Positions 8,248 through 35,840 of a stretch of 36,250 nucleotides of DNA are shown piece by piece (position 1 is the first letter of the stretch; the number at the start of each line of letters is the position of its first letter). The position numbers and the translations under genes were made by a program. The stretch comes from Rhodospirillales bacterium (GTDB lineage Bacteria > Pseudomonadota > Alphaproteobacteria > Rhodospirillales > Defluviicoccaceae), in contig REEP01000072.1 of the NCBI GenBank assembly GCA_007695045.1, forward strand, positions 1 through 36,250. The letters are read 5' to 3'. Below the pieces are notes generated by a model that was not told the origin of the DNA, ran no database searches, and saw nothing but the letters and a program-made list of their open reading frames with translations.

Positions 8248-8283
8248 TAATAGGACACACTGACCTGAACAGGATACCAACGC

Positions 8284-9333: not shown

Positions 9334-9335
9334 AC

Positions 9336-9668: not shown

Positions 9669-9693
9669 GCGCGCGTCCGCTGGATCTGTGCTC

Positions 9694-9725
9694 GCAAGAA
9701 AATCTTGCATTCTGCGTTTTGCAAG
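9694..9725. promoter_or_regulatory. Overlapping operator palindromes before the XRE-ImmA gene
   Basis: Three copies of a GCAAG/CTTGC half-site occur in 32 bp. GCAAGA-AAA-TCTTGC (9694-9708) is a perfect 6-bp inverted repeat, and CTTGCA-N10-TGCAAG (9704-9709 and 9720-9725) is a second one sharing the middle half-site. The cluster lies 27-58 bp before the ATG of an XRE-type regulator. Autoregulation by that protein is the natural reading. A TTATAT stretch at 9727-9732 could be a -10 element. Confidence 0.5.
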
Positions 9726-9751
9726 GTTATATGGCTGGGCAGGAGGCAGCC

Positions 9752-10858: not shown

Positions 10859-10865
10859 ATCGGGG

Positions 10866-11381
10866 ATGGTCCGCCACACCGGCCCGATCCTGGTCGACAC
10901 CATGGTCATCCTTGAGTGCCACCGGATCGGCGCGTGGCGGGCGCTCGCCGGCGGCTACGGCGTGGAGACGGTGGAGGACTGCGTGACCGAGACCCAGACC
11001 GGCTTCCAGCGGCGGCGGCGTGAACAGCAGATCGATGCCCCGGCGTTGCGCGCATCGCTGGCGGGCGTTCACGCGGTGGACGACGCCCAGCGCGCCGCAA
11101 TCTTGGTCCAGACCCTCGATCTCGCCGTCGATGAAGGCGAGCGGTCGCTCTGGGCCCACGCGGCGGCCCGGTCCGATGGCTGGATCCTCTGCGGTCCCGA
11201 CACATCGAGCCTGCGCCTCGGCGTGCGCCTGGGCTTCCGCGATCGGCTCGTCGCGCTGGAGGGACTGCTCGCCGATGTCGGCTACCGGCCGAAGACGGCG
11301 CTCAAGCGCCACTACACGCGCGACTGGCTTCGGCAGACGCTGGTGGAGATCGAACGGCTCGAAGGGATGGGACGGCCATGA
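10866..11381 (+). CDS. PIN-like domain protein
   Basis: A 171-residue protein that opens with a PIN-type strand, PILVDTMVILECH, with Asp11 and a nearby Glu17. Further acidic positions follow (ETVEDCVTET, DEGERSLWAHA, CGPDTSSLRLG), matching the four-acid metal centre expected of PIN RNases. The pairing with an XRE-ImmA gene 7 bp upstream is a known toxin-antitoxin-like arrangement. Its stop overlaps the drmA start as ATGA, so it is translationally coupled to DISARM. RNase activity and toxicity are predictions only. Confidence 0.62.
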   Translation: MVRHTGPILVDTMVILECHRIGAWRALAGGYGVETVEDCVTETQTGFQRRRREQQIDAPALRASLAGVHAVDDAQRAAILVQTLDLAVDEGERSLWAHAAARSDGWILCGPDTSSLRLGVRLGFRDRLVALEGLLADVGYRPKTALKRHYTRDWLRQTLVEIERLEGMGRP

Positions 11382-19130: not shown

Positions 19131-20060
19131 CTACCAGCCCAGCATTTCATAGGCGCCGAAGCCGAGCGCCGTGCGGGCGCCGGCGTGCGCCGTTTCGCCG
19201 AGCACGAACAGCGGCATCAGCGCTCGCAGCGGACCCTCGACGGAAAACCGGCCGAGAACGCCGGCGAAGCGAATGGGCCGCCCGGGTTGTGCCGACGAAA
19301 AACGGCGTAACGTGTAGCCCGTCGAGTCGATCCAACCGATCGACAACTGTTTGGACAGCTCCCGCCACGCGCTCCAGTCGGTCTCGATCCGCACCCCTTG
19401 CCAGCGGGCGAGGCCGCTCAACCGGTTGACAAGCGACATGACGAGCTGGTCGATGTCATTCGCCAGCGGGCCGTTGGCCCGGAGGCAGAGGGGCGTCTTC
19501 AGGCGGATGACCAGCCGGTCCGGCACCGCCTCGGTCACGTCGACCGTTTCACTGCGGCCCCAGTACAGGTCCCGCACCGGCCACGGCCGCCGCTGGGCGC
19601 CGCCTTCCCGCAGCGGCAACCCGTTGGCGAGCGCAGCCATCATGGCATCCCGGGCCTCCTTGCGCCAGAAGCCGGCGCAGCCGAACAGCGTCAGCGTCAC
19701 CCGCAGTGTCTCGCCGCTGCCGTCGAGATCGATGACGAACGGCCGGGGCACCGGCAGCTTCGGCGTCACCCAGGCATGGGTGCGAAAGTACACGTCGCGT
19801 GCCGTCGGCCGGCCGAACGGATCGTCGCCGTCGGCGCCACCGGCCTCCCCCTGACGCAGCAGTTGCTGCCCCCAGGCGCCCCGCAAGGCAACCGGCAGCC
19901 ACGGGCCTTCTTCGAGCCCGCGCGGCCGCTCGCACTCGAAAACCAGAAGGGTACGCTGCCAGTGCAGCGGCAGTGCGGCGAAATCGAGGCTGAGCACCGG
20001 GTTTTCCAGCCGTTCCCGCAGCAGCGGATGGCCATCCCCGCGATCATAAGGCGCGCTCAC
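19131..20060 (-). CDS. cas6: Cas6 pre-crRNA endoribonuclease (RAMP)
   Basis: A 309-residue RAMP-fold protein of the Cas6 type found in type III loci, which cuts crRNA precursors within the repeats. The C-terminal part shows the expected order: FAGVLGRFSVEGPLRALMPL, then LGETAHAGARTALGFGAYEM, whose glycine-rich loop and histidine match Cas6 proteins. The middle contains YWGRSETVDV and an NRLSGLARWQG segment. Start is GTG at 20060, overlapping the cas2 stop as GTGA. It is the last gene of the RT-cas1, cas2, cas6 operon. Here Cas6 is separate, not fused to the reverse transcriptase as in some relatives. Confidence 0.82.
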   Translation of the reverse strand: MSAPYDRGDGHPLLRERLENPVLSLDFAALPLHWQRTLLVFECERPRGLEEGPWLPVALRGAWGQQLLRQGEAGGADGDDPFGRPTARDVYFRTHAWVTPKLPVPRPFVIDLDGSGETLRVTLTLFGCAGFWRKEARDAMMAALANGLPLREGGAQRRPWPVRDLYWGRSETVDVTEAVPDRLVIRLKTPLCLRANGPLANDIDQLVMSLVNRLSGLARWQGVRIETDWSAWRELSKQLSIGWIDSTGYTLRRFSSAQPGRPIRFAGVLGRFSVEGPLRALMPLFVLGETAHAGARTALGFGAYEMLGW

Positions 20061-20347
20061 AACAGCCAGAAGCCCTGCTGTTCCGGTAGCGGCGCCCCGC
20101 CGATCCGCCGGCAGGCGGCGAGCAGGCCATCGGGCAGGGTATAGACGCGAAGCTTGTCTTCACGGGTGAGCAGCGGCTGCAGTCGCGCCATCACCGCGTC
20201 GAGTTCCCGGTCGGTGAGCCGGCCCTCGAACACGCTGAGCTGAACCCGTACCGCCACCTCCTCCAGAATGTCCGCGACCTTGCTCCGCATCCGGTTGGAG
20301 ACCACGTCGTAGGCGAAAACCCGCACCCAGCGCTTTTGCTTGGCCAT
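20057..20347 (-). CDS. cas2: CRISPR-associated Cas2
   Basis: A 96-residue Cas2, the structural partner of Cas1 in spacer integration. It opens MAKQKRWVRVFAYDVVSN, with Asp in the first strand, and continues with RVQLSVFEGRLTDRELD and a C-terminal TREDKLRVYTLP strand, the normal Cas2 layout and length. ATG 20347 starts 2 bp after the RT-Cas1 stop, and the gene overlaps cas6 by 4 bp, so the three form a tight adaptation-processing operon. Confidence 0.88.
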   Translation of the reverse strand: MAKQKRWVRVFAYDVVSNRMRSKVADILEEVAVRVQLSVFEGRLTDRELDAVMARLQPLLTREDKLRVYTLPDGLLAACRRIGGAPLPEQQGFWLL

Positions 20348-20349
20348 GG

Positions 20350-22482
20350 TCAGTAGTCCATCAGGTACGGTCGGTAACGCTCCGCGCCGACCATGTGACG
20401 GGCGTAGGCGTTGACCTGTTCCTGCATCAGGCCGCGCCACGTCGTTTCCGCCTTGCACCGTCGGCTGCGCACCCGGCTGTCGAGCTTTGCCTCGTAGCCA
20501 CGGATCACCGCCGTCCGTCCCTCGCGGCTCAGGCGCACGCCCTCGTCGTCCCGAGCGAAGAAATGCGCGGTGCGCAGGTGGCGCTTGTTGAACAGGCTTA
20601 CCGCTAGCCCCTCGCTCAAAGGTGCCCGGAATTCCTCCATCAAATCATAAACCGCACCGTCGTGGTCGTCGCGGGAGCCATGGAGAACGGCGAGACCGGG
20701 GTGGAGGTCGCGGCGCAGGATCAGCGTATAAAGATCGCGCGCCAACATCGATGCGAGCCAGGAGATGACCGCGTTGGCTGCATCCTTCGGCGGCTGGCGG
20801 GTGCGTTCGGTCAGCCGCCAGCCGTGCTTCAGGCAGCCGCCCAGCCCCGGCCAGTAGCGGGCGGTCGCGGCCCCCTCATACCCCATCAGTTCGTTCACCG
20901 CCCGCGCCGCCAGCGTCCGCCGGCTCAGCTTCGCAATCGCCTCGGCGGCTTCCGTCACGCTGGCGACGCCGGCCTCCCGGTTGAGCCGCTTCAGCTGCAC
21001 CTGCTGGTTGCGCAGTCGGCCCTGGACGATGATCCGCGCCAGCTCGAGCCTTCGGAGCTCGTCCAACGCGCACGCCGCCTGTGCCAGGTGCAGATCGGCC
21101 CGCCGCGCCAGCCGCGGCGTGATGCAGCCAACCTGCTCGCCGAAGCCGTTGACCATCGCCACCGGCACCCGCCAAGCCATTGCTTGGCGGATCGCGGCGT
21201 CGGAGATGCCGACGTGGGGGCCAATCTCGATCCGATCCACCTGCCCCGGCGGGATTGCCAACAGCTCCGCCTCGCCATCGACAACGATGAACGCCTCGTT
21301 GCGGAGATCCACCCGCAGGCCGCCCTCCATCACATAGAGCGGACACAGGATCGGCGAGAACCGCCCCGGCGGCTCGGCGCCGAGCGCGGCCCTGAAATCC
21401 GGCTCGATCGCCAGATCCGGCTCGATCGGGATCCTCTCGGGCGCGGTTCCTTCACCCCACGCCGGCGCGTCTGCCGGCACGCTGGCTGGCGGGGTCACGC
21501 CCATCGTTGCGGCCGACGTCGTCGGCGATGCGGAATCCGGCGCAATCGCGGCCTCCGCGGCCTCGATGTCGGGCGACGGAAAACGCATCGGCTCGGTCTC
21601 GCCTGCCGGCTCCATGTCGTCGTCGCTCTTCATCACCAGCGAGCGGAAGAACAGATGGCCGAGGAAGCGGAACCCCTCCTGGAAGCTTACGATCCGGGTC
21701 TTCTCCGGATGCAGCTCCAGGCCTTTCTCTGCCAGCAACGCCGCCATCCGTTCCAGCGCGCCTTCCGCACGCGCCTCGCTGCGGCACAGGATGACGAAGT
21801 CGTCGCCGTAGCGCACCAGGTGCACGCCGGCAGCGCCGATCTCGTCGTCGACCTCGTCGAGATAGAGGTTGGCGAGCAGCGGGGAGATCGGCGAGCCCTG
21901 CGGCAGGCCGAGCCCGTCTTCGCTGAAGCCGTCGAGCCACAACCCGACCAGGTCGACCAGCCGCGCATCATCGGTAACCGCCGCGAGGTGCTTCAGCAGC
22001 GGTGCATGCGGCACCCGGTCGAAGAAGGTGCGGATGTCGCCGTCCACCACCCAGTGATAGCCGTCGCGATAGAGGCTTCCGACCCGGCGCACCGCCATCG
22101 CCACCGAACGGCCGGGGCGATAGCCATAGCTGGCGTCATCGAATTCCGGCTCGAGGACCTCGCCCAGCACCAGAGCCGTTGCCGCCTGGGCCACCCGGTC
22201 GACGACACAGGGGATTGACAGCCGCCGTTCGCCGCCGCCTGGCTTGGCGATCAGCAGCGACCGGTACGGCCCCGGCCGGTAGCTGCCGGACAACAGCTCC
22301 TGGCGCAGCCGTTCGAGGCGGGCCCCCGCGCGTGCTGCGAACGCGGCGATCGTCTCGCCGTCGCCGCCGGGTGCGCCCTTGTTGCCGCGCACCCGGCTCC
22401 ACGCGGTTGCAAGCGTCGCGGGGTGGCAGATCCGCTCGAACAGCGACGGCGGATTGTGATTCCTCCGTGGAAACACTATCAT
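20350..22482 (-). CDS. cas1: Reverse transcriptase-Cas1 fusion
   Basis: A 710-residue fusion. The N-terminal reverse transcriptase (about 15-300) is of the group II intron-like type: LFERICHPATLATAW, YRPGRSVAMAV, DGDIRTFFDRV, LPQGSPISPLLANLYLD and the catalytic YGDD at 225-228. A proline/alanine/glutamate-rich linker (about 305-385) leads to Cas1. The Cas1 catalytic residues appear as Glu536 (MGYEGAATARYW), His601 (AVLHGSRDD) and Glu616 (YDLMEEFR). In Marinomonas such a fusion acquires spacers from RNA. ATG 22482 is chosen; an in-frame ATG 22536 is possible. It reads away from the short array next door. Confidence 0.92.
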   Translation of the reverse strand: MIVFPRRNHNPPSLFERICHPATLATAWSRVRGNKGAPGGDGETIAAFAARAGARLERLRQELLSGSYRPGPYRSLLIAKPGGGERRLSIPCVVDRVAQAATALVLGEVLEPEFDDASYGYRPGRSVAMAVRRVGSLYRDGYHWVVDGDIRTFFDRVPHAPLLKHLAAVTDDARLVDLVGLWLDGFSEDGLGLPQGSPISPLLANLYLDEVDDEIGAAGVHLVRYGDDFVILCRSEARAEGALERMAALLAEKGLELHPEKTRIVSFQEGFRFLGHLFFRSLVMKSDDDMEPAGETEPMRFPSPDIEAAEAAIAPDSASPTTSAATMGVTPPASVPADAPAWGEGTAPERIPIEPDLAIEPDFRAALGAEPPGRFSPILCPLYVMEGGLRVDLRNEAFIVVDGEAELLAIPPGQVDRIEIGPHVGISDAAIRQAMAWRVPVAMVNGFGEQVGCITPRLARRADLHLAQAACALDELRRLELARIIVQGRLRNQQVQLKRLNREAGVASVTEAAEAIAKLSRRTLAARAVNELMGYEGAATARYWPGLGGCLKHGWRLTERTRQPPKDAANAVISWLASMLARDLYTLILRRDLHPGLAVLHGSRDDHDGAVYDLMEEFRAPLSEGLAVSLFNKRHLRTAHFFARDDEGVRLSREGRTAVIRGYEAKLDSRVRSRRCKAETTWRGLMQEQVNAYARHMVGAERYRPYLMDY

Positions 22483-22605
22483 GCTGTTATAAAGATCAAA
22501 TTCAGCACATTCCGACTTTATGAGAACGATTATCATCTAAGAAGGGTTCATCCGTGGAAAATAGCTCGAAAATCGCTTCTTGCCTAGGGACTTCCGAGGG
22601 GGTAG
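22483..22605 (+). promoter_or_regulatory. Probable leader of CRISPR array 1
   Basis: This stretch is less GC-rich than its surroundings and separates the RT-cas1 start from the first repeat. The degenerate repeat sits at the far (right) end of the array, which places the leader here and makes the array transcribed rightward, divergent from RT-cas1. It probably holds both promoters, but I cannot identify convincing -35/-10 pairs. Confidence 0.5.
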
Positions 22606-22918
22606 GCTGCAGACACTCACTGGCCGCACCAGTGGTGAAGACAGTGACGACAGTCCACCAACCAAAACGGAGAGCTGCAGACACTCACTGGCCGCACCAG
22701 TGGTGAAGACATCTCGCATTTCCTTCTTGTTGTAAAGAACATGCTGCAGACACTCACTGGCCGCACCAGTGGTGAAGACTTCTTGACGTGCGAGAGATCG
22801 GCTCCGTCGAGTTTGCTGCAGACACTCACTGGCCGCACCAGTGGTGAAGACATTGTCGGTGATCATACCGAACCCTCCTTTGCTGCAGACACTCACTGGC
22901 CGCACCAGTTGTGCAGAC
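22606..22918 (+). CRISPR. CRISPR array 1: five 37-bp repeats, four spacers
   Basis: Repeats start at 22606, 22674, 22743, 22815 and 22882; spacers are 30-35 bp. The repeat begins GCTGCAGACACT, has a CACTGG-CCGCA-CCAGTG hairpin and ends in GTGAAGAC, an 8-nt tail just after the stem as expected for a Cas6-generated 5' handle. The first four repeats are identical. The last has two substitutions (CCAGTTGTGCAGAC instead of CCAGTGGTGAAGAC), marking the leader-distal end. The array is next to RT-cas1 and most likely belongs to the type III system here. Confidence 0.95.
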
Positions 22919-23221: not shown

Positions 23222-24013
23222 TCAGTCGGAAAGGCGGGTAATCAGTGCAGCGATCAGCCGGGCGCGGTCGGCCCCCGGCGGCAGCAGCGCGCCCCAGAAG
23301 CCACGGTCCGGAAGCGCGCCGCCGAACCAACTTCCGGGAACGGCGGCGGCCAGCCTGGCCACGCTGGTGCCGTCGCCGAAGAAGGCCAGCTTGGTCGGCA
23401 TCTCGACCAGAAGCGCATCATACCCGGGGCCGCCGAGTGCCGGTTCGATCAGGTCGGCGACCGCGGTCGAACGGTCCTGCGGCACCACAACCCAGGTGAG
23501 GTGGCCGATTACCCGTCGTGCCGCGATCGCCTTGCGGGCGGAATCCTCATCGGCAGCTTTTACCCCCTGGGCGGCGCGGTCGCGGGCGCGGATCACGCGG
23601 ATCTCCTCGTCAGCGGCCCCGAATGCTCGCATCGCTGCGATGTGGCCCTTGTCGTTGGCGGCGATCAGCGCCAGCTCCCGCGTCCACTCGCCGGCCGGCC
23701 GGCCGAGCAGCGCGAAGACCTGCTCCAGCGACGTCGGCCGGTCCGCCCCGGCCCGGGAACCGTGGTGATCGACGACGATGGTGCGCTCCCGGTCGAAGGC
23801 GTCCGCCGGCAGATCGTCGGTCAGCTCGATCAGCACCGGGGTATCGCCGCGGCCGAGGACGCCCGCGATCTCGTCCCGGTAATCCGAAACCTTCGCACCC
23901 CACGCCAGGCGCTTGTCGGTGAACCGGCCGGAGGCGTGGCGCTCCAGCAGCTCCCGGATCGCCGCCATCTCCAGATCGGCCCCGCCGAGGAAGAAGTGGT
24001 GGGTGGAGGTCAG
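23222..24013 (-). CDS. DHH-motif phosphoesterase-like protein, last gene of the cas10 operon
   Basis: About 263 residues. TIVVDHHGS (DHH at 82-84) resembles motif III of DHH phosphoesterases (RecJ, nanoRNase, cyclic-dinucleotide phosphodiesterases). LIELTDD at 61-67 could be motif II and ANDKGH at 119-124 a later metal-binding motif. The N-terminal FFLGGADLEM replaces the usual HxNPDxD motif, and a GSWFGGALPDRGFWG segment near the end may be a substrate loop. In Bacteroides fragilis a DHH-family enzyme (NrN) degrades the SAM-AMP signal that opens CorA. With a CorA gene in this locus, a similar off-switch role is likely but unproven. Start is uncertain: CTG 24013 has GGAGG 5 nt upstream and overlaps the preceding stop as CTGA; ATG 24133 would overlap by 124 bp. 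Confidence 0.65.
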   Translation of the reverse strand: MTSTHHFFLGGADLEMAAIRELLERHASGRFTDKRLAWGAKVSDYRDEIAGVLGRGDTPVLIELTDDLPADAFDRERTIVVDHHGSRAGADRPTSLEQVFALLGRPAGEWTRELALIAANDKGHIAAMRAFGAADEEIRVIRARDRAAQGVKAADEDSARKAIAARRVIGHLTWVVVPQDRSTAVADLIEPALGGPGYDALLVEMPTKLAFFGDGTSVARLAAAVPGSWFGGALPDRGFWGALLPPGADRARLIAALITRLSD

Positions 24014-26490
24014 CGGGGCCTCCGGTTGCGCTTCAAGGTCGGCAACGCCGATGTCCCTCGGTCGAGTCGCAGAAGCTGTTGTTGCTTGGCGTGGGTGCCT
24101 TTGCGGATGTGCTCGGCGTTGTTGGCGAACCATTTGAAGGTCTCCAGTTCCGCCCTCTCCGGTTCAGTGCCATCCCATTGATCAGCGGCGAGGGGCGTAT
24201 GCACCGGATGCGCCGGCAGGGTGGCCTTCCCGATGGCCAGCAGCGCGGTCAACGCATCGGGATAGGCGGCCCTGAGCCACGCGGCGCACGCCGTGGCCCG
24301 GTCAGAACAGCTCTTGCCGGGTGCGGCCGAGCCGGCCTCAGTCTTCTCCCGCTGGTAGAGACCCGGCCAGTGGTCTGGGACGACGCCCGACGACAGCACG
24401 ATGTCGCTGTAGCGCCTTGCCGTGAACAGATCGGTGGTGGTGCCGTAGCGTTCGCCCCGGTCGACGAGGCAGAGTGCCTGGGGCTCCAGGTGAACGGTGC
24501 CGAGGCCGATCCCCTTGCCCATGCCGAGCTTGTGGCAAAACGTTTCGGACGGTTGCAACGCGAAGCACAGCAGGCCCAGCTCCGCCTCGCTCAGGTTGTC
24601 GAAGTCGATGTGGAACCAGAAGGTTGCCCCGTCTTTTATGGGTCTGACGGCGTTTTTCAACCTGGCCTGGTTTTTCTCGTCATCCGTTCCGAGCTTGAGC
24701 TTTGTCGCCCAGGGCTCACCATGAGGGTTATGATGGAGGTAGAACTTGCGCCCCTGGGGACGATGCTTGCCCAGGTGGAGCGTATGCTTGGCGATCGGTT
24801 TATTTGGGGTGCCCTTGTCATAGAAGTAAAGCTGGGGCGAGGGTGGCTTGGGTGAGCCCAAGGTCTTGAGGCGCACCATGCCGTTGACCCGGTCGGCGTC
24901 TTCCCGGGGCAGGCCCTCGCCCGGCTTCGGTACCTGCTCGCCGGGCAGAAAGCTCTTTTCCTTGGCGTCGTCACCAGCCGCCGTTTCCAGGCGGCCGGTC
25001 GAGACCCGCACCCGGCCGGCATAGGCCACGTGCGGGTTCTGTCGGTTCGGCTTGCCGTCGGCACTCACGAACCCGAACAGCCACTCCGCCGGCGAGATCG
25101 TTTCCCGCTTCGAATCGAACGGCAGCAACTCCTTGTCGATCGGCCGGAAGAAATCGGCGAGCGAGGCGATGTGCGCATCCGGCTCGTCTCCTTTCGGGGC
25201 CTTCTCGACCAGACCGCGCCAGATCGCGGAGAACGAGATCGCGGAGACGACGGGCTCCCCATCGTCGCCCGCCTCGACCTCGAAATAGACGAGTTGGCCT
25301 TCGCGCAAACGGACCCGATGCTCATCATCTCGGTCCTGCTCCATCTGAGCATCGGAAACGAACGGGAGGTAAGGCTTCCGTTCGCGAAGACTGGCCTCAT
25401 GGCTGCCCTCGGCACTCCGCTCGTTGGCCAACGCGGCAAACGTTTGGAGAGCCTGACGCTTGATGGGCAGTGTCGAACGCTCTCGGGCGGACTTGGGGAA
25501 CGGTATGAACAACTCATGTGCCTTTGTCTTCGACATGTCGCGGTCCTCTCCGCCAAGGACGCGCAAGAAACCCGGAACGAATGAGTCATATGCCGCTTGG
25601 TTCTTTCGATTGGTCATGCCCGTGGCGTTGAGGATCTGGCCAGAAGCAGGCTCTTGTGCAACGACGATATTACCCTTTGTGCGAGGGCGAAACGCCCATG
25701 TGATCGTGCCATCCGTTCCGATCGGACCACCCTCACTGATTTTCATGTGAAAGCAGGTGTCATGCCGAGGAACTGGCAAAACGTTCTCATCCAAGATCGA
25801 GAGGTTTTCCATAAACTCCTGGTATCCGAAACATCGATCGCGGCCGCCGATCTTCAGATACTCCCCAACATAGCAACGCACATTTGCGTACTCAGAAAAA
25901 GCTTTGAGCCATAGTTCATGGTTTCTGCGAAAGAGAACCCGCGATGTGCCATTGTCGAATTCGAAATAGGGCAGGACGAGCGGCCGCAGCCTGTATCGCG
26001 ACCAACGGTCACCCTTGACTTCTTCGATCCTTCCGATCGCCGACAGCGCTTTTGGCATCGGCTGGCGGTAAGAGACCGGCTTCTTGTTGTGAAACACCCG
26101 CATTGCCGACTGGCTCACCGCTTCGACGATCGACGAGAGCATGCCCCGCAGGCTGGTCGCCGGGATCGCGGGCTCGCCGTTGAACCTGTAGGGCTCGACG
26201 ATGGTGTAGTCGTCCTTGCCCTTGCCGTCCTTGTCCTGCTCTCCGCCGACCACGAGCGGCGTCTTGGTGGTCAGCTTGACGATGATCCGGCCGCTCAACG
26301 CAGCCCGGTCAAAGTGCGCGTGGCTGTATCGGCCCGAAACTCCGTCCTTGCGAAAGTCAGCCGCCAATCGGCCGGCATGTCGAACCGGACCGCTTCCGGT
26401 CACACTTTCCTGATCGCGAAGGACATCTTGGTCTGATGGCTTGGCCACGGGCACGAAGTGATAGGGATTGTAGAATTCGTCAGCCGGCAT
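24010..26490 (-). CDS. RAMP protein of the TIGR03986 type
   Basis: An 826-residue type III effector subunit. It opens ADEFYNPYHFVPV, the hallmark of the TIGR03986 CRISPR-associated RAMP family. It continues with a Cas7-like domain: GRIIVKLTTKTPLVVGGE, then IPATSLRGMLSSIVEAV near 115-135. The C-terminal region contains FCHKLGMGKGIGLGTVHLEP near 670-690, the glycine-rich RAMP loop. Subunits of this kind line crRNA and bind target RNA. ATG 26490 overlaps the preceding RAMP stop by 11 bp; upstream in-frame ATGs at 26547 and 26586 are less likely. Confidence 0.82.
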   Translation of the reverse strand: MPADEFYNPYHFVPVAKPSDQDVLRDQESVTGSGPVRHAGRLAADFRKDGVSGRYSHAHFDRAALSGRIIVKLTTKTPLVVGGEQDKDGKGKDDYTIVEPYRFNGEPAIPATSLRGMLSSIVEAVSQSAMRVFHNKKPVSYRQPMPKALSAIGRIEEVKGDRWSRYRLRPLVLPYFEFDNGTSRVLFRRNHELWLKAFSEYANVRCYVGEYLKIGGRDRCFGYQEFMENLSILDENVLPVPRHDTCFHMKISEGGPIGTDGTITWAFRPRTKGNIVVAQEPASGQILNATGMTNRKNQAAYDSFVPGFLRVLGGEDRDMSKTKAHELFIPFPKSARERSTLPIKRQALQTFAALANERSAEGSHEASLRERKPYLPFVSDAQMEQDRDDEHRVRLREGQLVYFEVEAGDDGEPVVSAISFSAIWRGLVEKAPKGDEPDAHIASLADFFRPIDKELLPFDSKRETISPAEWLFGFVSADGKPNRQNPHVAYAGRVRVSTGRLETAAGDDAKEKSFLPGEQVPKPGEGLPREDADRVNGMVRLKTLGSPKPPSPQLYFYDKGTPNKPIAKHTLHLGKHRPQGRKFYLHHNPHGEPWATKLKLGTDDEKNQARLKNAVRPIKDGATFWFHIDFDNLSEAELGLLCFALQPSETFCHKLGMGKGIGLGTVHLEPQALCLVDRGERYGTTTDLFTARRYSDIVLSSGVVPDHWPGLYQREKTEAGSAAPGKSCSDRATACAAWLRAAYPDALTALLAIGKATLPAHPVHTPLAADQWDGTEPERAELETFKWFANNAEHIRKGTHAKQQQLLRLDRGTSALPTLKRNRRPR

Positions 26491-28204
26491 TCCCGGGCTC
26501 CTTGCCGGCGCGGAAGGCTGCGAGGGCCTCGGCGATGGCGTTGCCATAGAGGGCTTTCGCCGCTTGTTTTTTCTGGTCATGGTCAAGGTTCCCTCCGGGC
26601 AGTTCCAGTCTGTGCGGGAGCATGCCCGGGAAGATTGCTTGCAGCGCGGCCGCTGGCCCGATCACGGGCGGGCCCACAATCACTGCCGTGCAGGCGCCGA
26701 AGCCCTTGGCGGCGCCGAAGCCGAAGGTGACGTCGCCCTCGACCAGATCACGCAGCACCAAGGCCATCAGGCCCAGCGCCGGCTTGGCAAACTGCGGGGT
26801 CCACGGCTCTTCCCGGTGATCCTCTCCCGGCAGCGGGTCGGATATCCGCCGCGGGCTCACGCGCAGGAGGAGGCAGCCGGTCAGGACCGGCGCTTCGGCC
26901 ATCCGGGCCTTGAACTTGGCCCCGTCCGCGGCGCCGCCGGTGAAGCGGTCAATGGCGACGAACTCCTGTTCAGCGAAGGTCTTCTCCGGCTCCTTCGGCA
27001 ACTCGTGCTCGGTGAAATCGCTGACCGTCAGCATCCCCCGCCAGCCGCCCACACCGAACAGCCACTCGACCGCGTTGCGGGGCGAGGGTCCTGGGGATGG
27101 ATCGTGCTGGCGGTGCTCGCCGCCCACACCGAACAGCCACTCGACCGCGTTGCGGGGCGTGCCATCGCGGCTCTCCTCCGGTGACGCTAGCGCATCTTCC
27201 CCGTGCACCGTGCGGTAAATCCGCTCCGCCTGCGCCCTCAGCGCACCCTTGACCGAGCTTCCGGGCAGCAACGGCCGGCCATTCTGATCGCGCATCGGCT
27301 CGAAGTCCGGGTGCTGGCTACCTGACGTCTTGTGTTTCACCCACGCCGGATGGTTGACCAGGAAAGGGCCGGAAAAAGCAAGCCGCAGGTCGAGTGCCAG
27401 CCAGCCCGGTCGGTCCGCACCCGCCAGCAACCGGTTGGCCCGAGCAGTAAGCGCGCCGCGGTCGCAGGCGGTAGCGGGATCGTCGACGATGGCCTCCCGC
27501 CACGGTCGGGGCTTCGGTTGGCTGAGCCAGCGGTAGACGGCGCCGACATCCATCCGGCGCACGCTGTGCAAGCGCCACTTGGTGCGACCGGGACCATGGC
27601 TCCCCCCGCCACCCAGCGCGATGGGCACGTCGCCTCCGCCGGCGTTGAAACCGTCGAACGCCGCCAGCAGCAACGCGACCTCATGGGGGGTGAGTGAATC
27701 CCCCGCGACCTCGACTTGAAACGCGGTTGTGGCGGGCACCTGCTCGCCTTGAAACAACCTCTCGACGGCAGCAGTGCGCGTCTCGCGGTTGATCGCCGTC
27801 CGCCCGACCAGCAACGGCGGCACCGCCGAAAACGGCCCATCGAACCCTGGAAGCTCGGCAATGAAGGCATCGAGAAACTCAGCCTTGCCACCGCGGCCGG
27901 CCTGCTTCGTGGGATCCTGTTTCCACTGCCGCGGTTCATGCCCGAAGATGCTCTCGATGCTGGCTTTCTCGTTGGGGAGGCGCTCAATCAACCATGACCT
28001 CAGCACCCCTTTGAGACTGGAGCCGAGGATGACGGGCAGGCCATCGCAGTCGCGGTGGACCAGGGCCACCTCGGCCGTCTCGTCTGCTGCGTCGCGGGCG
28101 CCTTTCACTTTCCGCGGTTCGCTGAAACCGGTGCGCAGTTGCAGCGCCGAGTTGAGGGTGAGCGCGCCCCTGATCAACCAACGGTCCTTGAACGGGACGG
28201 TCAT
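26480..28204 (-). CDS. RAMP protein with two Cas7-like domains
   Basis: A 574-residue type III effector subunit with two RAMP units. Unit 1 runs from LIRGALTLNSALQLRTGF through ILGSSLKGVLRSWL to the glycine-rich ALGGGGSHGPGRTKW. Unit 2 starts at LDLRLAFSGPFLVNHPAW, has LLPGSSVKGALRAQAERIY, and ends with DVTFGFGAAKGFGACTAVIV. The fusion resembles tandem Cas7 backbone proteins (Csm3/Cmr4-like), but the exact subtype name cannot be given. ATG 28204 overlaps the previous stop as ATGA. A perfect 41-bp repeat inside unit 2 duplicates the PRNAVEWLFGVGG peptide. Confidence 0.8.
   Translation of the reverse strand: MTVPFKDRWLIRGALTLNSALQLRTGFSEPRKVKGARDAADETAEVALVHRDCDGLPVILGSSLKGVLRSWLIERLPNEKASIESIFGHEPRQWKQDPTKQAGRGGKAEFLDAFIAELPGFDGPFSAVPPLLVGRTAINRETRTAAVERLFQGEQVPATTAFQVEVAGDSLTPHEVALLLAAFDGFNAGGGDVPIALGGGGSHGPGRTKWRLHSVRRMDVGAVYRWLSQPKPRPWREAIVDDPATACDRGALTARANRLLAGADRPGWLALDLRLAFSGPFLVNHPAWVKHKTSGSQHPDFEPMRDQNGRPLLPGSSVKGALRAQAERIYRTVHGEDALASPEESRDGTPRNAVEWLFGVGGEHRQHDPSPGPSPRNAVEWLFGVGGWRGMLTVSDFTEHELPKEPEKTFAEQEFVAIDRFTGGAADGAKFKARMAEAPVLTGCLLLRVSPRRISDPLPGEDHREEPWTPQFAKPALGLMALVLRDLVEGDVTFGFGAAKGFGACTAVIVGPPVIGPAAALQAIFPGMLPHRLELPGGNLDHDQKKQAAKALYGNAIAEALAAFRAGKEPGNAG
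27044..27159. repeat. 41-bp direct repeat inside the RAMP gene
   Basis: Identical copies lie at 27044-27084 and 27119-27159, offset by 75 bp, so the reading frame is kept. The encoded peptide PRNAVEWLFGVGG appears twice with a 12-residue EHRQHDPSPGPS linker between. It looks like a recent in-frame duplication, variable between strains if slippage-prone. Confidence 0.9.
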
Positions 28205-30237
28205 GGGGCCGCCCCCGTGGCTCCCCGAAGCAGCCGGAGATCGCAGGTGCGGTGCACCGCCATGTTGATCGCCACCTCGCCGTAGCCGTTCTGGCGGATG
28301 TATGGGCACTGCGCCCACAACGAGGCATCGCGACAGGTCTCACCAGGCGCTCGCCGCAACTCATGATGGTCCAGCACCGACTCCGGCAGGCTCAGGCCCT
28401 GTTCCAGCCAACCCCGCAAGGTCTTTGCCACGTCGGCACCCCGGTCGGTCGCTCCCAGCACGAACACGCTGCCGGCCTCGGTCAACAGCCAAGGCAGGTA
28501 GGTGCCGTTACCGGCAAACCGCTGCAGGAAAAAGGCACCGCCAGCGAGTCGCTGGCGAGCGAAATAGCGTACCAGTTCGACGCGGCCGCCGGAGAGGTTG
28601 GCAAAGGCGCGCCGGTAGGCGCGCTCGAGCTTGTCCTGCCCGCTGCCAGCCCCCAGAAGATCAAGGTTGGAGCACAGCAAAGCTGGCGTCTGCAGGGTGA
28701 CAACAAAATGGCCATCGAGCGGCGCCAGGGATTCTGCCGCCGCCGGCGTCGCTGCCTCGGCCGGCACCGCCATGAGCCCCATCTGCGCCAACGCGTGGGT
28801 CTTGCCGATGCCGCTGATAAGACCTTGCGTCAACTCTATAAGATCGTCCAGCACCCCCCCGCGCTGGTCAGCCGAAACGTCGGCAAGGTCGATCTCGCCC
28901 ACCCACAGGTGCTGATCGGGCAGGACCAGTTCGTTGGCGAACAGCTGTTCGGGGGCGCCGGCGCGCAGGTGCTGGTCCATCGACGTGCGCAAGCGGAGTG
29001 CCCGCGGAGGTTCACTCAGACCGAACAGGGCATTGGCCCGGGCAAAGTCATCGCCCTTCCAGTCGTGCACGAAGCGGGGGGCGGACGCCTTGCCCGACCG
29101 CTGATGGGGATCCGCTGGCGGCGGCGCGGTGTCATCGATCAGTTTCGGCCCTTCGCAGAGGGCGACATCGAACAGCCCGCCCTTTCGGCCAGCCACCAGG
29201 GACAGCGGCCACACTCGTGGCCGCGGCGGCCATCCGCGCAACGGCGGCGTCGGTGCCAGCGCGCCTTCCAACGGCGGATCTGCGCCGAAGGCGACCGGCC
29301 AAGAGCCGGGTGCAGCCGCAATCGGCACCGGCACTGCATGCAGGAAGCGGAGGGCGTCGAACCAGCGGCGAAGATATCGGAAGCGCGCATCAGCCGGATC
29401 CGCACTGACCGCGGCTCCCGCCGGGAGCCCGAGGGCCGCGGCCATTTGGTTGGCCAGTGCACCCTTGATCGCTGCGCCAGGTACCGAGCTCTCACTTTCA
29501 AAGACGTTATTGCTGCGTGGCGCGGCAGAGATGCAAAACGGCTCCAGGAAGCGCAGCACCAAGCGGAGGCGAGCGCACGCCGGACTACTCGGATCTTCCG
29601 TCGGAGAGGCAGACGCGTGCGTCTGGGGTGCGCGTGCGTCCTCCCGTTGGAGCTCGACACCGAGAGTCCGGCCGAAGCCGATGGTGCGCTCGCCGCCGAA
29701 CTGCGGCACCCAGTTCAGCCCGCGCTCGATCGCATCGGCGATCACATCCGCTTCGGAGTCCTTTGCAAGAATGGTCACCCGTCCGGTGAACGCAACCGCC
29801 GCGCGGCTCGCGAACGGGGTCTCCAGCACGGCCAGGGCTCGCTCCTTGGCGGCGCCCGTGGACAGCTCTATGGCGACGCGGCCGCGCGTGGCGGCAACGG
29901 CTCCCGGCACCGTCGCAAACAGGTCACCGATAAAGACCGAGCCGCGCCGCTGACCCTCACCCTCGTCAGGGCGGCCGAGCCATTGGCCGATACGGGCGAC
30001 GGAAGCGGGCCCGGAAATGCTCGTTCCCTCCCGTCGCGCGGCGCAGCGTGCGGCGCGCACGCACTCGTTCAGCTCGGCCCACGCTTGGCGTAACTTGCCC
30101 TGGACATGGCTGCCGGCGAGCATCGGTGTTCCATCGGCGGCGCGGGCCACCGGCGCATCCACACCATAACCGCCGATCGCGGTCGATCGGGTCAGCACCG
30201 GGCCTTGAACGGTCAGCGTCAGGCGGTAGGTGCGCAT
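28201..30237 (-). CDS. RAMP protein with two RAMP domains, next to cas10
   Basis: A 678-residue type III effector subunit. Domain 1 opens MRTYRLTLTVQGPVLTRS, has MLAGSHVQGKLRQAW near 55, and a glycine-rich FGGERTIGFGRTLGVEL near 190. Domain 2 shows RLVLRFLEPFCISAAP, then VPGAAIKGALANQMA near 270 and GLISGIGKTHALAQMGL near 500. Its position directly after cas10 suggests a Csm4/Cmr3-like cap fused to another RAMP unit; this is inference. ATG 30237 lies 19 bp inside the end of cas10, indicating coupling; an upstream in-frame start at 30309 is less likely. Confidence 0.78.
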   Translation of the reverse strand: MRTYRLTLTVQGPVLTRSTAIGGYGVDAPVARAADGTPMLAGSHVQGKLRQAWAELNECVRAARCAARREGTSISGPASVARIGQWLGRPDEGEGQRRGSVFIGDLFATVPGAVAATRGRVAIELSTGAAKERALAVLETPFASRAAVAFTGRVTILAKDSEADVIADAIERGLNWVPQFGGERTIGFGRTLGVELQREDARAPQTHASASPTEDPSSPACARLRLVLRFLEPFCISAAPRSNNVFESESSVPGAAIKGALANQMAAALGLPAGAAVSADPADARFRYLRRWFDALRFLHAVPVPIAAAPGSWPVAFGADPPLEGALAPTPPLRGWPPRPRVWPLSLVAGRKGGLFDVALCEGPKLIDDTAPPPADPHQRSGKASAPRFVHDWKGDDFARANALFGLSEPPRALRLRTSMDQHLRAGAPEQLFANELVLPDQHLWVGEIDLADVSADQRGGVLDDLIELTQGLISGIGKTHALAQMGLMAVPAEAATPAAAESLAPLDGHFVVTLQTPALLCSNLDLLGAGSGQDKLERAYRRAFANLSGGRVELVRYFARQRLAGGAFFLQRFAGNGTYLPWLLTEAGSVFVLGATDRGADVAKTLRGWLEQGLSLPESVLDHHELRRAPGETCRDASLWAQCPYIRQNGYGEVAINMAVHRTCDLRLLRGATGAAP

Positions 30238-31943
30238 GCGCTGCCCCCTGCCGCCGTAGTTGGCTTCCGCGGAACCAGAAAGTCCCACAGGTCGTCGAGG
30301 TGCAGCCACAGCGCCGGGCCGTCGCCGAAACAGCGGTGCAGGGCGGCAACCTGATCCTGCAAGCCGTCGGCCTTCAGGTCCGCAAGCAATGCCTTCTCCA
30401 GCGCCTCCGCCTCGCCGCCGGCGCCGCGCTCGTGCAGGGTCAGCGCCAGGCGTTTGACCTGACGGCGGGCCATACGCGGCCCCATTTCGGGGTTTAAGCT
30501 TGCCATCGCTTCCGGCACGCCCGCCATCGTCGCTCCGTCAATCAGCATCTCCTCCGGCCGCATGCCGGCCGGGCACCGGCTCCGGCGAAAACCGTCGAGG
30601 TCACGGCCGATGTGATCGAAGGATTCAAGCACCTGATAGGCGAGCAGGCTGCGGCCGCGGTCGACCTTCTTGGCATGTTCGGCGAGGTCGCGGGCGAGAC
30701 GGTGAATTCGGGTGATCGGCGCATCGTGATGGCAGAAGACGAGGCCGGCGGCATGATGCAGCTGACATTCCCCCTTGCTGCCCCGAAGTCGCCAGCCGTC
30801 GTCCGCGCGTGGCCGGCCGCTGTCCGGATCGAGCCCGAGAGTTTCCGCAAAAAAGGTGCTGGCCAGGGTCCAACCGAATGATGCCGGCACCACCCAAGTG
30901 CCGTCGTCGCCGGCCCAGATGAGCGTCTCCAGGCGCAGTCGGCATTTTCGTTTATCGTCGCCGTTCGGCCTCACCCCGACGTCGCACGCCGCCAGCCGGT
31001 CGACAACGGCGGCGAGGAGGCGGTCGCGCCAGCCGCGAAGTCGCTCATCATAGCATCGCTGACATTCATGAGGGTCGCCGCTGATGTCGGGTTCGAAGTC
31101 ACCGCGCACCGCCGTGTCCTGGATGCGACTGAAGGCGTTGCCGTCGGCATAGAACACCGCGATCTTGCCGGAAAGCGGAAAACCCTTGTCCCCCGGGCCT
31201 GCAATCTCTTCGAAGTTCCGAGCATAATCGTCAAAGCGTTGGTCAGGAAGGGAGGTGCCGGCGCGCTTGAGGACCTCGGCGTACAAGTCGAACTTGCGTC
31301 GGAGGCCGTAGCCCCGGCGGAGGAAGACCGACCGGCTAATCGATCGCACTTCTCCCTTGATGGGCTCCTGCTTAAGCGAGCCGGGGCGAACAAAATCAAA
31401 GCTGCAGACGCGATCACGGGCCGAACGGCCATCGGCCCTTTCTGCCTTCACTGGGACCAGAGTGGGCGCCTGCATCTGCCGCCATCGGTTGGCGGCGATC
31501 ACGTTCTCGCGGGCGGTAATGAACGCCTCGGCGTCCTCACCGGTACCCTGCACGATGTCGACCACGAAGGTCGCAAAGCGAGCGCGAGCGAGAATGCGTC
31601 GGTGCTGAGTGTCAAGCTTGGCGTCCTTCAGGTCTTTCTGGCCGCGGCCATCTAGCCAGCCGGCAACAGTGGCACACACCTTCTGCAGCAGCGGCGGCTC
31701 GGTCCAGGTCAGGCGGAACAGACCGATCGAAGCGCCCTCGCTGAGAGTCTGGACGTCTTTCAGCGTCCCGATCGGGGAGGTCGGTGACGACGCCTGGCAC
31801 CGTTCCAGCATCGCCTTCACCGCCTTGATGGCGTCGAGATGCAGGAAGCTGCCACCGCGGACGGTGCTCAAGTCATTGGTGTCGGTGACCGAGGCGTCGA
31901 AGTTGACACCCTCGATCCGCAGCAAGGCGATGGTCTCTGGCAT
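30219..31943 (-). CDS. cas10: Cas10 without HD domain, AGDD active site
   Basis: A 574-residue large subunit of the type III complex. It opens MPETIALLRIEGVNFDA and DTNDLSTVRGGS. The first palm contains AVFYADGNAFSRI (Asp267), followed by a CQRCYDER zinc-type pair. The second palm contains LIWAGDDGTWVVP (AGDD at 344-347), in place of the usual GGDD. I see no HD nuclease dyad at the N-terminus, and the protein is shorter than typical Cas10 (about 700-1000). Both metal-binding Asp residues are kept, so nucleotide signal synthesis is plausible. Start ATG 31943 chosen because earlier residues overlap a pseudogene and look non-coding; first gene of the effector operon. Confidence 0.82.
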   Translation of the reverse strand: MPETIALLRIEGVNFDASVTDTNDLSTVRGGSFLHLDAIKAVKAMLERCQASSPTSPIGTLKDVQTLSEGASIGLFRLTWTEPPLLQKVCATVAGWLDGRGQKDLKDAKLDTQHRRILARARFATFVVDIVQGTGEDAEAFITARENVIAANRWRQMQAPTLVPVKAERADGRSARDRVCSFDFVRPGSLKQEPIKGEVRSISRSVFLRRGYGLRRKFDLYAEVLKRAGTSLPDQRFDDYARNFEEIAGPGDKGFPLSGKIAVFYADGNAFSRIQDTAVRGDFEPDISGDPHECQRCYDERLRGWRDRLLAAVVDRLAACDVGVRPNGDDKRKCRLRLETLIWAGDDGTWVVPASFGWTLASTFFAETLGLDPDSGRPRADDGWRLRGSKGECQLHHAAGLVFCHHDAPITRIHRLARDLAEHAKKVDRGRSLLAYQVLESFDHIGRDLDGFRRSRCPAGMRPEEMLIDGATMAGVPEAMASLNPEMGPRMARRQVKRLALTLHERGAGGEAEALEKALLADLKADGLQDQVAALHRCFGDGPALWLHLDDLWDFLVPRKPTTAAGGSACAPTA

Positions 31944-31998
31944 CTCCCCCCGACTCCGCAGCAGACCCGCGTTCCGCGCTTCTCGATTTTTTTCGCTG

Positions 31999-32028
31999 AT
32001 CGTACAGGGCGACTGCTCAGAATGGCAA
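31999..32028 (-). promoter_or_regulatory. Possible sigma70 promoter of the cas10 operon
   Basis: On the minus strand TTGCCA and TACGAT are separated by 18 bp and lie about 55 bp before the cas10 ATG. The match is moderate and untested. Confidence 0.28.
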
Positions 32029-32136
32029 GAGCACTGCCGCATCATCCCCACGCGCCGCTGCGCACGCCCGGCGCAAGAAGAGTAAGCCCCGGCGGCTGGA
32101 TCGTCCGAAATGGCCGAACGCCTTACAGAGCAATGT

Positions 32137-32412
32137 TCACAACCCCAGCGAGAAGAAACTGGGCGGGGCATTGTTGACGATGGCACCGCCGCCCTGGCGC
32201 TCCGTAACCGGCAGCACGTGCCGGCGGGTGAGGTAGACGCTCTTGAGGTTGACCCGCATCACCTCATCCCAGGTACCCTCGTCGATCTCCAGCGGGCCAC
32301 CCACCTGGGCGATGCCGACGCTGGTGATGAGGCTGATGATCCGCCCAAACGCCGCCAGCCAGGCCCGAACCGCATCCGCATCGCCGACGTCGGCCGCGAA
32401 CGTCCGGCAGGG
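32137..32412 (-). pseudogene. Short-chain dehydrogenase fragment
   Basis: About 90 residues of an SDR oxidoreductase are readable: GIAQVGGPLEIDEGTWDEVM, then RVNLKSVYLTRRHVLP and ERQGGGAIVNNA, ending in an abnormal PPSFFSLGL and TGA. The N-terminal nucleotide-binding glycine motif and the catalytic YxxxK half are missing, and the expected VNN strand is altered. It sits between cas10 and array 2 and is unrelated to defence, so it is probably a scar of recombination at the locus edge. Confidence 0.7.
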
Positions 32413-32450
32413 GCCCTGGCTACTGTGGACTTACAAGGCCGAAAACTCTG

Positions 32451-35400
32451 GCTTCAATGAGGCCGCGGCATTACTGCCGCGGATATGTCTGACGTTCCGC
32501 TTCCGTACCCCCCGCCAACCCCCCGCTTCAATGAGGCCGCGGCATTACTGCCGCGGATATGGAAGTAACATTGAGACAGGAAATCCCGCAACTAAGTGCT
32601 TCAATGAGGCCGCGGCATTACTGCCGCGGATATGGCGCCAACCCCTCCGGCACGAACCCCAAGCGCCTCGCGCTTCAATGAGGCCGCGGCATTACTGCCG
32701 CGGATATGGTCGCGGCGCCACATCACCTCGCCCACCGACCACCCCCGCTTCAATGAGGCCGCGGCATTACTGCCGCGGATATGAAGGGGGCGCGATTGGT
32801 GCTCATTACGCACTCTTGATTTCGCTTCAATGAGGCCGCGGCATTACTGCCGCGGATATGCGGCATGGGCTGGGCGCTGACCGAGGAGCGGGTAACCGCT
32901 TCAATGAGGCCGCGGCATTACTGCCGCGGATATGCAAGGGCCGCCAGGACACCCTCGACAACTCCGCCGGCTTCAATGAGGCCGCGGCATTACTGCCGCG
33001 GATATGCGCCACGGTCTCCCCCTCCAGGTGCCCCAGCCCGGAGCTTCAATGAGGCCGCGGCATTACTGCCGCGGATATGGTTCCATCTGAATTAAACGAT
33101 ACACCGCGTCCAGTACCTGGCTTCAATGAGGCCGCGGCATTACTGCCGCGGATATGGGCCATTGATAGATACTATCAATGGCCCCATGTTACGTGCTTCA
33201 ATGAGGCCGCGGCATTACTGCCGCGGATATGGCGTACATGAAGGGGGCAAACCTGCGAGGGGCGTACATGCTTCAATGAGGCCGCGGCATTACTGCCGCG
33301 GATATGTTAGAAAAGGTCTCATTAATATGGGCTTACCAGCAGAGCTTCAATGAGGCCGCGGCATTACTGCCGCAGATATGGTATTGTCACAACGCCTTAC
33401 TAACCGCCTATTGATGTGGCTTCAATGAGGCCGCGGCATTACTGCCGCGGATATGTTGAGCGACTGGACGCCGCATCGCTGGCGGCGCGAATGCTTCAAT
33501 GAGGCCGCGGCATTACTGCCGCGGATATGGTTGCGTTTTGCCTGATGGCGCTTAAGATTGCGCGGTTGCTTCAATGAGGCCGCGGCATTACTGCCGCGGA
33601 TATGAACCGGCTCGCCCGAACTGACCACCCGCAAATACGGCACGCTTCAATGAGGCCGCGGCATTACTGCCGCGGATATGAAGCCACGAAAATCTGGGGG
33701 CTGGTCGGGATACAAGCTTCAATGAGGCCGCGGCATTACTGCCGCGGATATGTCCAACGTTTCACAGACATTCGCTTCGAAACAGGAGACGCTTCAATGA
33801 GGCCGCGGCATTACTGCCGCGGATATGAACAATGTCTACCTTCCCACTATCCTCTGACCAAGAGGCTTCAATGAGGCCGCGGCATTACTGCCGCGGATAT
33901 GACGCCCGTCCGGCCGACACCGGCCCGCCCGATGCCCGAGCTTCAATGAGGCCGCGGCATTACTGCCGCGGATATGACCCAAGCGCCGCGCATCATTGAT
34001 GGTCGGTTCGTTCTGGCTTCAATGAGGCCGCGGCATTACTGCCGCGGATATGGGCGGCTTGGTGAAGCCAGCTACGAGTACATCGCCATGCTTCAATGAG
34101 GCCGCGGCATTACTGCCGCGGATATGCGGGGAGTTCGTCATCGAGGGCTCGGCGGACGGCGGGTGCTTCAATGAGGCCGCGGCATTACTGCCGCGGATAT
34201 GACTACCGCTCGATCCCGGTGCCACGTCCAGTCATTCCCGCTTCAATGAGGCCGCGGCATTACTGCCGCGGATATGTCGGCACCAGCATCGGCGGCACCG
34301 CCCTCACGGTAGGGCTTCAATGAGGCCGCGGCATTACTGCCGCGGATATGCTTCATGACCCCCCTGGGGGCGGCATCGCACTTTGGGCTTCAATGAGGCC
34401 GCGGCATTACTGCCGCGGATATGCGCCGCTACAGCACCACACCTCGTGCGCCGCCATAGCGCTTCAATGAGGCCGCGGCATTACTGCCGCGGATATGGGC
34501 GTTGATGGAAGGTGATCGCGTTGTCATAGCTGAGGCTTCAATGAGGCCGCGGCATTACTGCCGCGGATATGGGTGAACACAACTCACTTCGGAGTCGCCG
34601 AAGTGATCGCTTCAATGAGGCCGCGGCATTACTGCCGCGGATATGGTTGGTTCTGGTGACGAGCGGATAATTGAGGGCATAGGCTTCAATGAGGCCGCGG
34701 CATTACTGCCGCGGATATGCGCGTCTTGATCGCCGCCTACCGACAGGTCTACGCCGAGGCGCTTCAATGAGGCCGCGGCATTACTGCCGCGGATATGAGG
34801 ATGGCCCGGCCCGTGGCTTGTCGTGGCATCCGGGCTTCAATGAGGCCGCGGCATTACTGCCGCGGATATGATGCCGTCAGTTGGGCGGGCTCGCTTTGGA
34901 TCGCTCAGCTTCAATGAGGCCGCGGCATTACTGCCGCGGATATGGCGCCGCACAGCAACCAGGAGGAAATAATGGCACGAAGCTTCAATGAGGCCGCGGC
35001 ATTACTGCCGCGGATATGTCCTTCCCGTTTTCACCGTCGCGGCCAGGGACGCCGGCTGCTTCAATGAGGCCGCGGCATTACTGCCGCGGATATGTGGTAG
35101 ATATAAGTAGGTCCTTTTATGAATTTCACATATGCTTCAATGAGGCCGCGGCATTACTGCCGCGGATATGTTCTGCTGATGCACGTCCAGTTTCATCAGC
35201 ATCAAACAGCTTCAATGAGGCCGCGGCATTACTGCCGCGGATATGCTCGCCGACCTTGACCACTTCGCACATTGTGCCGTTGTGCTTCAATGAGGCCGCG
35301 GCATTACTGCCGCGGATATGCGGCGTCAGATGTGGATTATCCACACTGAAAATAACCGGCTTCAATGAGGCCGCGGCATTACTGCCGCGGATATGTTGTG

Positions 35401-35840
35401 CCTATGCCCGGACCGGCATTGATCGCTTGCGTGCTTCAATGAGGCCGCGGCATTACTGCCGCGGATATGGTTATACTCAGTTGACTGGTGCAGATACTTA
35501 CTACATGCTTCAATGAGGCCGCGGCATTACTGCCGCGGATATGACGTTGACCATGAAGAGCCTTATCCTCATCATCTTGCAGCTTCAATGAGGCCGCGGC
35601 ATTACTGCCGCGGATATGGCTGGAGTAGATGGGAGAGGTAGGCGGTCACCTGGGCGCTTCAATGAGGCCGCGGCATTACTGCCGCGGATATGTGGTGTTT
35701 TATGAGTTTTTTCTTCCCAGCACACTTTAGCTTCAATGAGGCCGCGGCATTACTGCCGCGGATATGTTTCCGCCGTCATTCACTGAGCTAGCAGCATTAG
35801 CTCGCTTCAATGAGGCCGCGGCATTACTGCCGCGGATATG
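32451..35840 (-). CRISPR. CRISPR array 2: 46 repeats of 37 bp, 45 spacers
   Basis: Regular units of 72-77 bp, with the first repeat at 32451-32487 and the last at 35804-35840. On the minus strand the repeat begins CATATCCGCGGCAGTAATG, contains a perfect 8-bp stem (CCGCGGCA/TGCCGCGG) with a 4-nt loop, and ends in ATTGAAGC, close to the common ATTGAAAC handle. This indicates leftward transcription. All repeats are identical except the one at 33344-33380 (CCGCAGATATG). The repeat shares no similarity with array 1. The nearest adaptation gene is the partial cas2 to the right, so ownership by a second system is likely. Confidence 0.96.

Follow-up and report, generated by a model that had tools for sequence, protein, structure and literature searches.

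A CRISPR locus with RT-Cas1 and Cas10 genes

The window, by which we mean the whole stretch of DNA analysed, is an entire contig of 36,250 bases from a genome with an estimated completeness of 97.6%. It carries two CRISPR arrays and a group of cas genes (Table 1), with RT-Cas1, Cas2 and Cas6 to the left of array 1 and a DHH-family protein, three RAMP-type subunits, Cas10 and array 2 to its right. RT and Cas1 share one open reading frame that has no inner stop and, with Cas2 alongside, make up an RT-Cas1 adaptation module. The YGDD box is kept in the RT part, and the true start of the protein may lie downstream of 22536. The effector genes are of type III, combining Cas10 with Cas5- and Cas7-like RAMP subunits: PADLOC models match four of them and Pfam RAMP models three. 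III-D models of PADLOC are the best matches for the Csm4/Cas5-like and Cas7-like genes; for Cas10 a generic model scores best, and the Csx10/Cas5_IIId models match window genes only at 0.0006 or worse. NCBIfam assigned neither Cas10 nor the Cas5-like gene to a subtype, and no NCBIfam model matched Cas10 at 0.01. Judged by these model matches, the locus is type III-D-like, with RT-Cas1, Cas2 and Cas6 beside array 1.

Table 1 Arrays, spacers and cas genes of the window
Feature	Coordinates	Strand	Description
Cas6	19131..20060	-	Pfam 4e-10, PADLOC 2.8e-48
Cas2	20057..20458	-	Pfam 3.8e-13
RT-Cas1 fusion	20350..22536	-	Pfam RVT_1 2e-37, Cas1 1.7e-64
Putative leader of array 1	22481..22605	+	AT-rich, GC 0.42; ends CGAGGGGGTAG before the first repeat
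CRISPR array 1	22606..22918	+	four spacers between five 37-nt repeats GCTGCAGACACTCACTGGCCGCACCAGTGGTGAAGAC, of which the final one is degenerate
Spacer 1	22643..22673	+	strand ambiguous; antisense log-odds 0.41
Spacer 2	22711..22742	+	leans antisense; log-odds 1.73
Spacer 3	22780..22814	+	complement translates KLDGADLSHVK, pentapeptide-repeat-like; log-odds 0.21
Spacer 4	22852..22881	+	complement AAAGGAGGGTTCGGTATGATCACCGACAAT, with GGAGG, 7 nt, ATG; log-odds 0.69
DHH-family CRISPR-associated protein, CorA-associated type	23222..24133	-	PADLOC C3a116 1.7e-64, DHH_CorA 1.4e-38
TIGR03986-family RAMP effector subunit	24010..26586	-	NCBIfam 257.6 bits (cut-off 161.35)
Cas7-like subunit, III-D type	26480..28318	-	two RAMP stretches; Pfam RAMPs 2.2e-31, PADLOC Cas7_IIId 6.5e-44
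Csm4/Cas5-like subunit, III-D type	28201..30309	-	PADLOC PDLC01408 (CAS-III-D) 1.8e-73
Cas10	30219..32186	-	PADLOC Cas10 4.3e-27; AGDD box
CRISPR array 2	32451..35840	- (transcribed strand, by repeat)	46 repeats, 45 spacers

A gRAMP effector of type III-E or III-I was considered for the TIGR03986-family gene and rejected, as its 135.3 bits for III-E and 28 for III-I fall short of the model cut-offs of 700 and 800, respectively; the separate subunits and the presence of Cas10 also speak against a single fused Cas7-11. No CorA was named among the scanned ORFs of the window, although the DHH protein near Cas10 is of the CorA-associated type. Beside the CRISPR locus, DISARM-like drmD, drmMI, drmA and drmB genes occupy 102-16749, a stretch that also holds an HTH-peptidase gene of RmrA/capP-like type (9719-10858). 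The gap between array 2 and cas10 (32160-32430) resembles, by eye, part of a short-chain dehydrogenase gene on the - strand.

Array 1 lies exactly where the original prediction had placed it. It is a real CRISPR array, with regular, near-identical repeats starting at 22606, 22674, 22743, 22815 and 22882 (the last with two mismatches) and unique spacers of 30-35 nt. A 29-nt part of its repeat, sought with up to two mismatches, occurs nowhere else in the 11 genomes of the family, its own included. The prediction had also put the leader at the left. The degenerate rightmost repeat, the AT-rich DNA at the left (GC 0.42 in the 125 bases preceding the array, compared with 0.64-0.67 beyond it) and a conserved leader end bear this out, the array 1 crRNAs therefore most likely equalling the + strand. 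Similar leader ends stand at the same place in Tistrella mobilis, in genome G172 and in Azospirillum lipoferum, where the array likewise diverges from RT-Cas1 and has a degenerate repeat at its far end.

These relatives share much of the locus. In Tistrella plasmid pTM1 (NC_017957.2) and in G172, the RT part is 58% and 57% identical to that of the window and the Cas1 part 43%; the array sits in the same divergent position with antisense-leaning spacers, whereas the repeat sequence differs. The effector subunits near RT-Cas1 and Cas2 in pTM1 are the same as those in the window. Cas6, however, adjoins the effector genes in Tistrella and Cas2 in the window, and no DISARM gene is annotated in 36 kb of Tistrella, unlike in the window. 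Plasmid AZO_p2 of A. lipoferum 4B encodes an RT-Cas1 with about 51% identity across 85% of the query and matches the window in array placement and in the order of RT-Cas1, Cas2 and Cas6, but its effector is III-B (Cmr) by annotation and its repeat ends GATTGAAAC. Passages of the study of Marinomonas mediterranea MMB-1 (PMC5576922) describe a comparable combination of RT-Cas1 adaptation, a Cas10-type effector and a need for antisense spacers; the effector there is III-B, and acquisition was measured, whereas for the window it is presumed. The III-D RT-Cas1 system of Vibrio vulnificus likewise joins RT-Cas1 to a III-D effector, according to a review (PMC9048733).

Read on the - strand, the array 2 repeat ends ATTGAAGC. 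Another contig of the same genome (C128) has an array with this repeat before III-B cmr and csx1 genes, and because a degenerate repeat stands at the matching end of that array, we take the - strand to be the transcribed strand of array 2. In the relative G002, similar repeats follow I-G cas3, cas8, cas5/6 and cas4-cas1 genes. Given these other cas types near its repeat, array 2 is probably not filled by RT-Cas1 alone. One repeat family is thus found beside I-G, III-B and III-D-like genes (window 32451-35840; L092 18-2054; L094 454-4222). Among the array 2 spacers, 33157-33194 holds a perfect hairpin, GGCCATTGATAG-ATA-CTATCAATGGCC, and 35321-35358 contains the palindrome TGTGGATTATCCACA, which we take to resemble a DnaA box pair.

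Coding strand and origin of the array 1 spacers

Coding strands were estimated with a codon-usage likelihood model. Its training material was long open frames from phages, plasmids and the window, with arrays masked, and it was tested on 36-nt gene pieces by leaving one group out. Accuracy on these pieces was 63-67% in GC-rich groups and 69-86% in others. Test pieces that were all antisense were estimated at 0.71-0.89 in GC-rich groups and 0.86-1.00 in others, instead of 1, and the model therefore errs low. Model versions differ in their training sets, so that single values shift. Array DNA in the training sets was rejected as a cause of bias, as masking left the estimates equal within 0.01.

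The model called all four array 1 spacers antisense, each weakly and spacer 3 almost undecided (Table 1); another training set gave log-odds of 0.46, 1.82, 0.08 and 1.48 for spacers 1-4. For array 1 alone the antisense estimate is 1.00, with an interval of 0.24-1.00, and four spacers alone decide nothing on orientation. The open codons that had been offered as a sign of coding carry no information and were discarded as antisense evidence: each of the four spacers has an open frame on either strand, and none on just one. The other two motifs quoted, GGAGG-N7-ATG in the complement of spacer 4 and KLDGADLSHVK in the translated complement of spacer 3, are present as described. Against a phage and plasmid background, the probability that at least one of four spacers has a Shine-Dalgarno-like motif followed by ATG on a given strand is 0.10 for a loose motif, 0.04 for a strict one and 0.06 for the strict motif with ATG or GTG. 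Spacer 3 has its best site in genome G358, where 23 of 35 letters agree, which is not significant; the site lies in the same strand and frame as a pentapeptide-repeat coding sequence. We presume that both the spacer 3 complement and this site encode a pentapeptide-repeat motif, a reading that the site backs a little.

Searches for protospacers of array 1 in phage, plasmid, IMG/VR, family and class collections returned nothing beyond the array itself and matches at chance level. Among phage records, 18 matched at E values of 1 to 4, and the 21-23-nt matches all span a repeat-spacer border; plasmid records gave none at E up to 10. The IMG/VR scan, which used short exact cores (for spacer 3 a single degenerate one) that diverged protospacers would escape, returned 19 contigs with best whole-spacer identities of 22/31, 22/32, 24/35 and 22/30 for spacers 1-4, taken as chance. 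Within the family (11 genomes, its own included) the best match outside the array had E = 0.06. Across 385 genomes of the class, four besides its own reached E of at most 0.01 per genome, about the number expected by chance, and the sites inspected agreed at 23/35 (spacer 3), 21/32 (spacer 2) and 21/30 letters (spacer 4). This absence fits passages of a report on Arthrospira, in which nearly all RT-linked spacers are without a known source (PMC5513706). Array 2 had no match to phages at E up to 1, and its strong matches to plasmids, family and class were judged, from their spread over the repeats, to be related arrays.

Antisense bias in RT-linked and RT-less arrays

We compared spacer orientation across hand-picked loci, with 11 plasmid records used from the 60 listed of 85 matched. 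'RT-linked' was defined by neighbourhood and includes G257, which has a stand-alone RT gene and whose set pools at least two arrays, and Microcystis, in which the RT has a gene of its own; second cas1 genes also occur at the Anabaena pANACY.01, Allocoleopsis and Microcystis loci. 'RT-less' refers to the locus, since the Gloeothece and Anabaena strains in this set carry RT-Cas1 on another plasmid. We assigned orientation by how the repeats ended and where degenerate ones stood, with the least certainty for Allocoleopsis. Joints exceeding 60 nt were excluded, and spacers that recur in Picosynechococcus PCC 7002 were counted once (79 distinct spacers from 89 repeats). The G270, G450 and G528 loci were left out, and the stretches of G043 examined held no CRISPR-like family.

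Antisense spacers predominated with and without RT. Six RT-linked alphaproteobacterial arrays from four loci, array 1 included, had 22 of 27 spacers antisense, as codon evidence for crRNA-transcript complementarity (estimate 1.00, 0.74-1.00; sign test P = 0.0015). Estimates were 0.85 (0.73-0.95) for nine cyanobacterial arrays beside RT-Cas1 or a separate RT (91/134), 0.76 (0.51-0.96) for the III-D-like G257 set (52/84) and 0.85 (0.75-0.94) for all RT-linked sets pooled (n = 245). Six arrays of RT-less III-B loci reached 0.73 (0.65-0.80; 161 of 250 distinct spacers), and four arrays with array-2-type repeats 0.62 (0.47-0.76; 85/146). A model-free count of spacers open only on the complement versus only on the crRNA strand agrees in direction: 11 versus 2 of 134 in the RT-linked cyanobacterial set, 22 versus 11 of 250 in the RT-less set, 1 versus 0 of 146 in the array-2-type set and none in the GC-rich RT-linked sets. 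The antisense bias is thus general for these type III arrays and, as RT-less III-B arrays show it too, does not need RT.

Whether RT adds to this bias bears on a different account, in which orientation is set at capture: RT-Cas1 would copy mRNA and integrate the copy so that crRNAs are antisense, giving a bias beyond what selection alone produces. The pooled RT-linked arrays do exceed the RT-less III-B arrays (likelihood ratio 3.67, P = 0.055; without G257 4.60, P = 0.032), an array bootstrap gives 0.77-0.91 versus 0.68-0.78, and the RT-linked alphaproteobacterial arrays exceed array-2-type arrays of similar GC (likelihood ratio 5.69, P = 0.017). Under selection, moreover, the newest spacers should be less biased than older ones, and no such gradient appears in either class (RT-linked 0.86 in the newest third and 0.82 in the oldest; RT-less 0.68 and 0.66). 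These differences are borderline, however, and come from hand-picked loci. Within cyanobacteria the likelihood ratio is 2.95 (P = 0.086), falling to 0.88 (P = 0.35) for true RT-Cas1 fusions (82 spacers, 0.81), the excess stemming from Microcystis with its separate RT gene. The Marinomonas study likewise describes RT-Cas1 inserting spacers in either orientation, and after interference had been eliminated the antisense bias was only moderate (PMC5576922). A further bias with RT is therefore borderline, and we consider an orientation set at capture unlikely.

The antisense look of array 1 could also be chance, with some of its four spacers perhaps from non-coding DNA. The low log-odds of each spacer, the frames open on both strands and the lack of protospacer matches in the collections searched would suit this, but the five other arrays of the RT-Cas1 group, with the window excluded, have 18 of 23 spacers antisense (1.00, 0.68-1.00), which makes chance improbable. 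The claim that array 1 spacers are antisense is supported insofar as all four calls and the RT-linked arrays of relatives agree, each call in array 1 being weak.

The 45 spacers of array 2 have no overall bias (0.54, 0.29-0.78), and spacer 33232-33269 reads AYMKGANLRGAY, also antisense to the presumed crRNA. A sense tendency marks the 11 newest spacers, those nearest the leader (0.09, 0.00-0.43), and an antisense tendency the remaining 34 (0.89, 0.57-1.00); with the cut picked post hoc, permutation P was 0.0003 and 0.0001 in two runs, and Spearman P was 0.004. The C128, G002 and G006 arrays have no significant age gradient individually.

The original prediction had further proposed RNA-derived capture near transcript starts. 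By eye, RT-linked arrays seemed rich in translation starts, an impression that the formal count did not uphold as a feature linked to RT. Among 36-nt pieces of ten phage and plasmid stretches, 2.6% per strand carry the loose Shine-Dalgarno-plus-ATG motif. On spacer complements it was found in 1 of 4 array 1 spacers, 3/27 RT-linked alphaproteobacterial spacers with array 1 included (P = 0.033 over background), 6/84 in G257 (P = 0.023), 4/134 RT-linked cyanobacterial, 17/250 RT-less III-B (P = 0.0004) and 5/146 array-2-type spacers; the counts on the crRNA strand were 0 (array 1), 2/27, 0/84, 2/134, 6/250 and 1/146. Azospirillum accounts for two of the three alphaproteobacterial cases, and spacer 4 is the third. 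The motif is no more frequent in RT-linked arrays than in the rest (13/245 versus 22/396, Fisher P = 1.0; strict motif 5/245 versus 9/396). The excess is not tied to RT and may reflect the targets themselves or the choice of background. Capture from RNA near transcript or translation starts, to which GGAGG-N7-ATG in the spacer 4 complement and the above-background counts in the alphaproteobacterial and G257 sets had pointed, is highly improbable given these counts and the antisense bias of RT-less III-B arrays; spacer 4 lies over a translation start most simply as a chance draw from coding DNA.

Selection and RT as possible sources of the orientation

We think it probable that array 1 belongs to an RT-Cas1/Cas2 module serving the Cas10-containing III-D-like effector, and that its antisense orientation arises mainly because only transcript-complementary spacers work, so that the working ones are kept. 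The array would be transcribed rightward from its leader, Cas6 would cut the repeats, and the crRNAs would guide the Cas10 complex to complementary invader transcripts; acquisition of spacers from RNA by RT-Cas1 would make at most a modest contribution to orientation. That all four effector subunits recur close to RT-Cas1 in Tistrella mobilis supports this assignment of array 1.

Published work describes a range of bias in type III systems. Spacers favour the coding strand at about 65% (PMC8482600), and the RT-less type III system of Thermus takes spacers from both strands without selection and acquires a strong bias through it (PMC7515739). A review reports RT-active type III systems without strand bias outside rRNA genes, citing the V. 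vulnificus III-D system (PMC9048733). The selection already known from type III systems, which favours spacers complementary to transcripts, is enough to explain the orientation, and a modest RT contribution to the bias is possible. Array 1 is likely to be largely ordinary in this respect, its spacers being antisense as expected of a type III system, and antisense spacers alone are no sign of RNA capture.

At the present sample size the RT difference is borderline, and several times more spacers would be needed to separate 0.85 from 0.73. Comparing RT-linked with RT-less arrays, and newest with oldest spacers, tests orientation on natural arrays without protospacers. Type III systems need transcript-complementary spacers, and the question at stake is whether RT-Cas1 supplies that orientation. 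It is doubtful that RT-linked type III arrays in nature have their spacer orientation set at the moment of RNA copying, leaving nearly all spacers antisense, the newest included (0.85-1.00), unlike the moderate bias measured in Marinomonas. If they did, the alphaproteobacterial RT-Cas1 lineage would orient its cDNA during integration.
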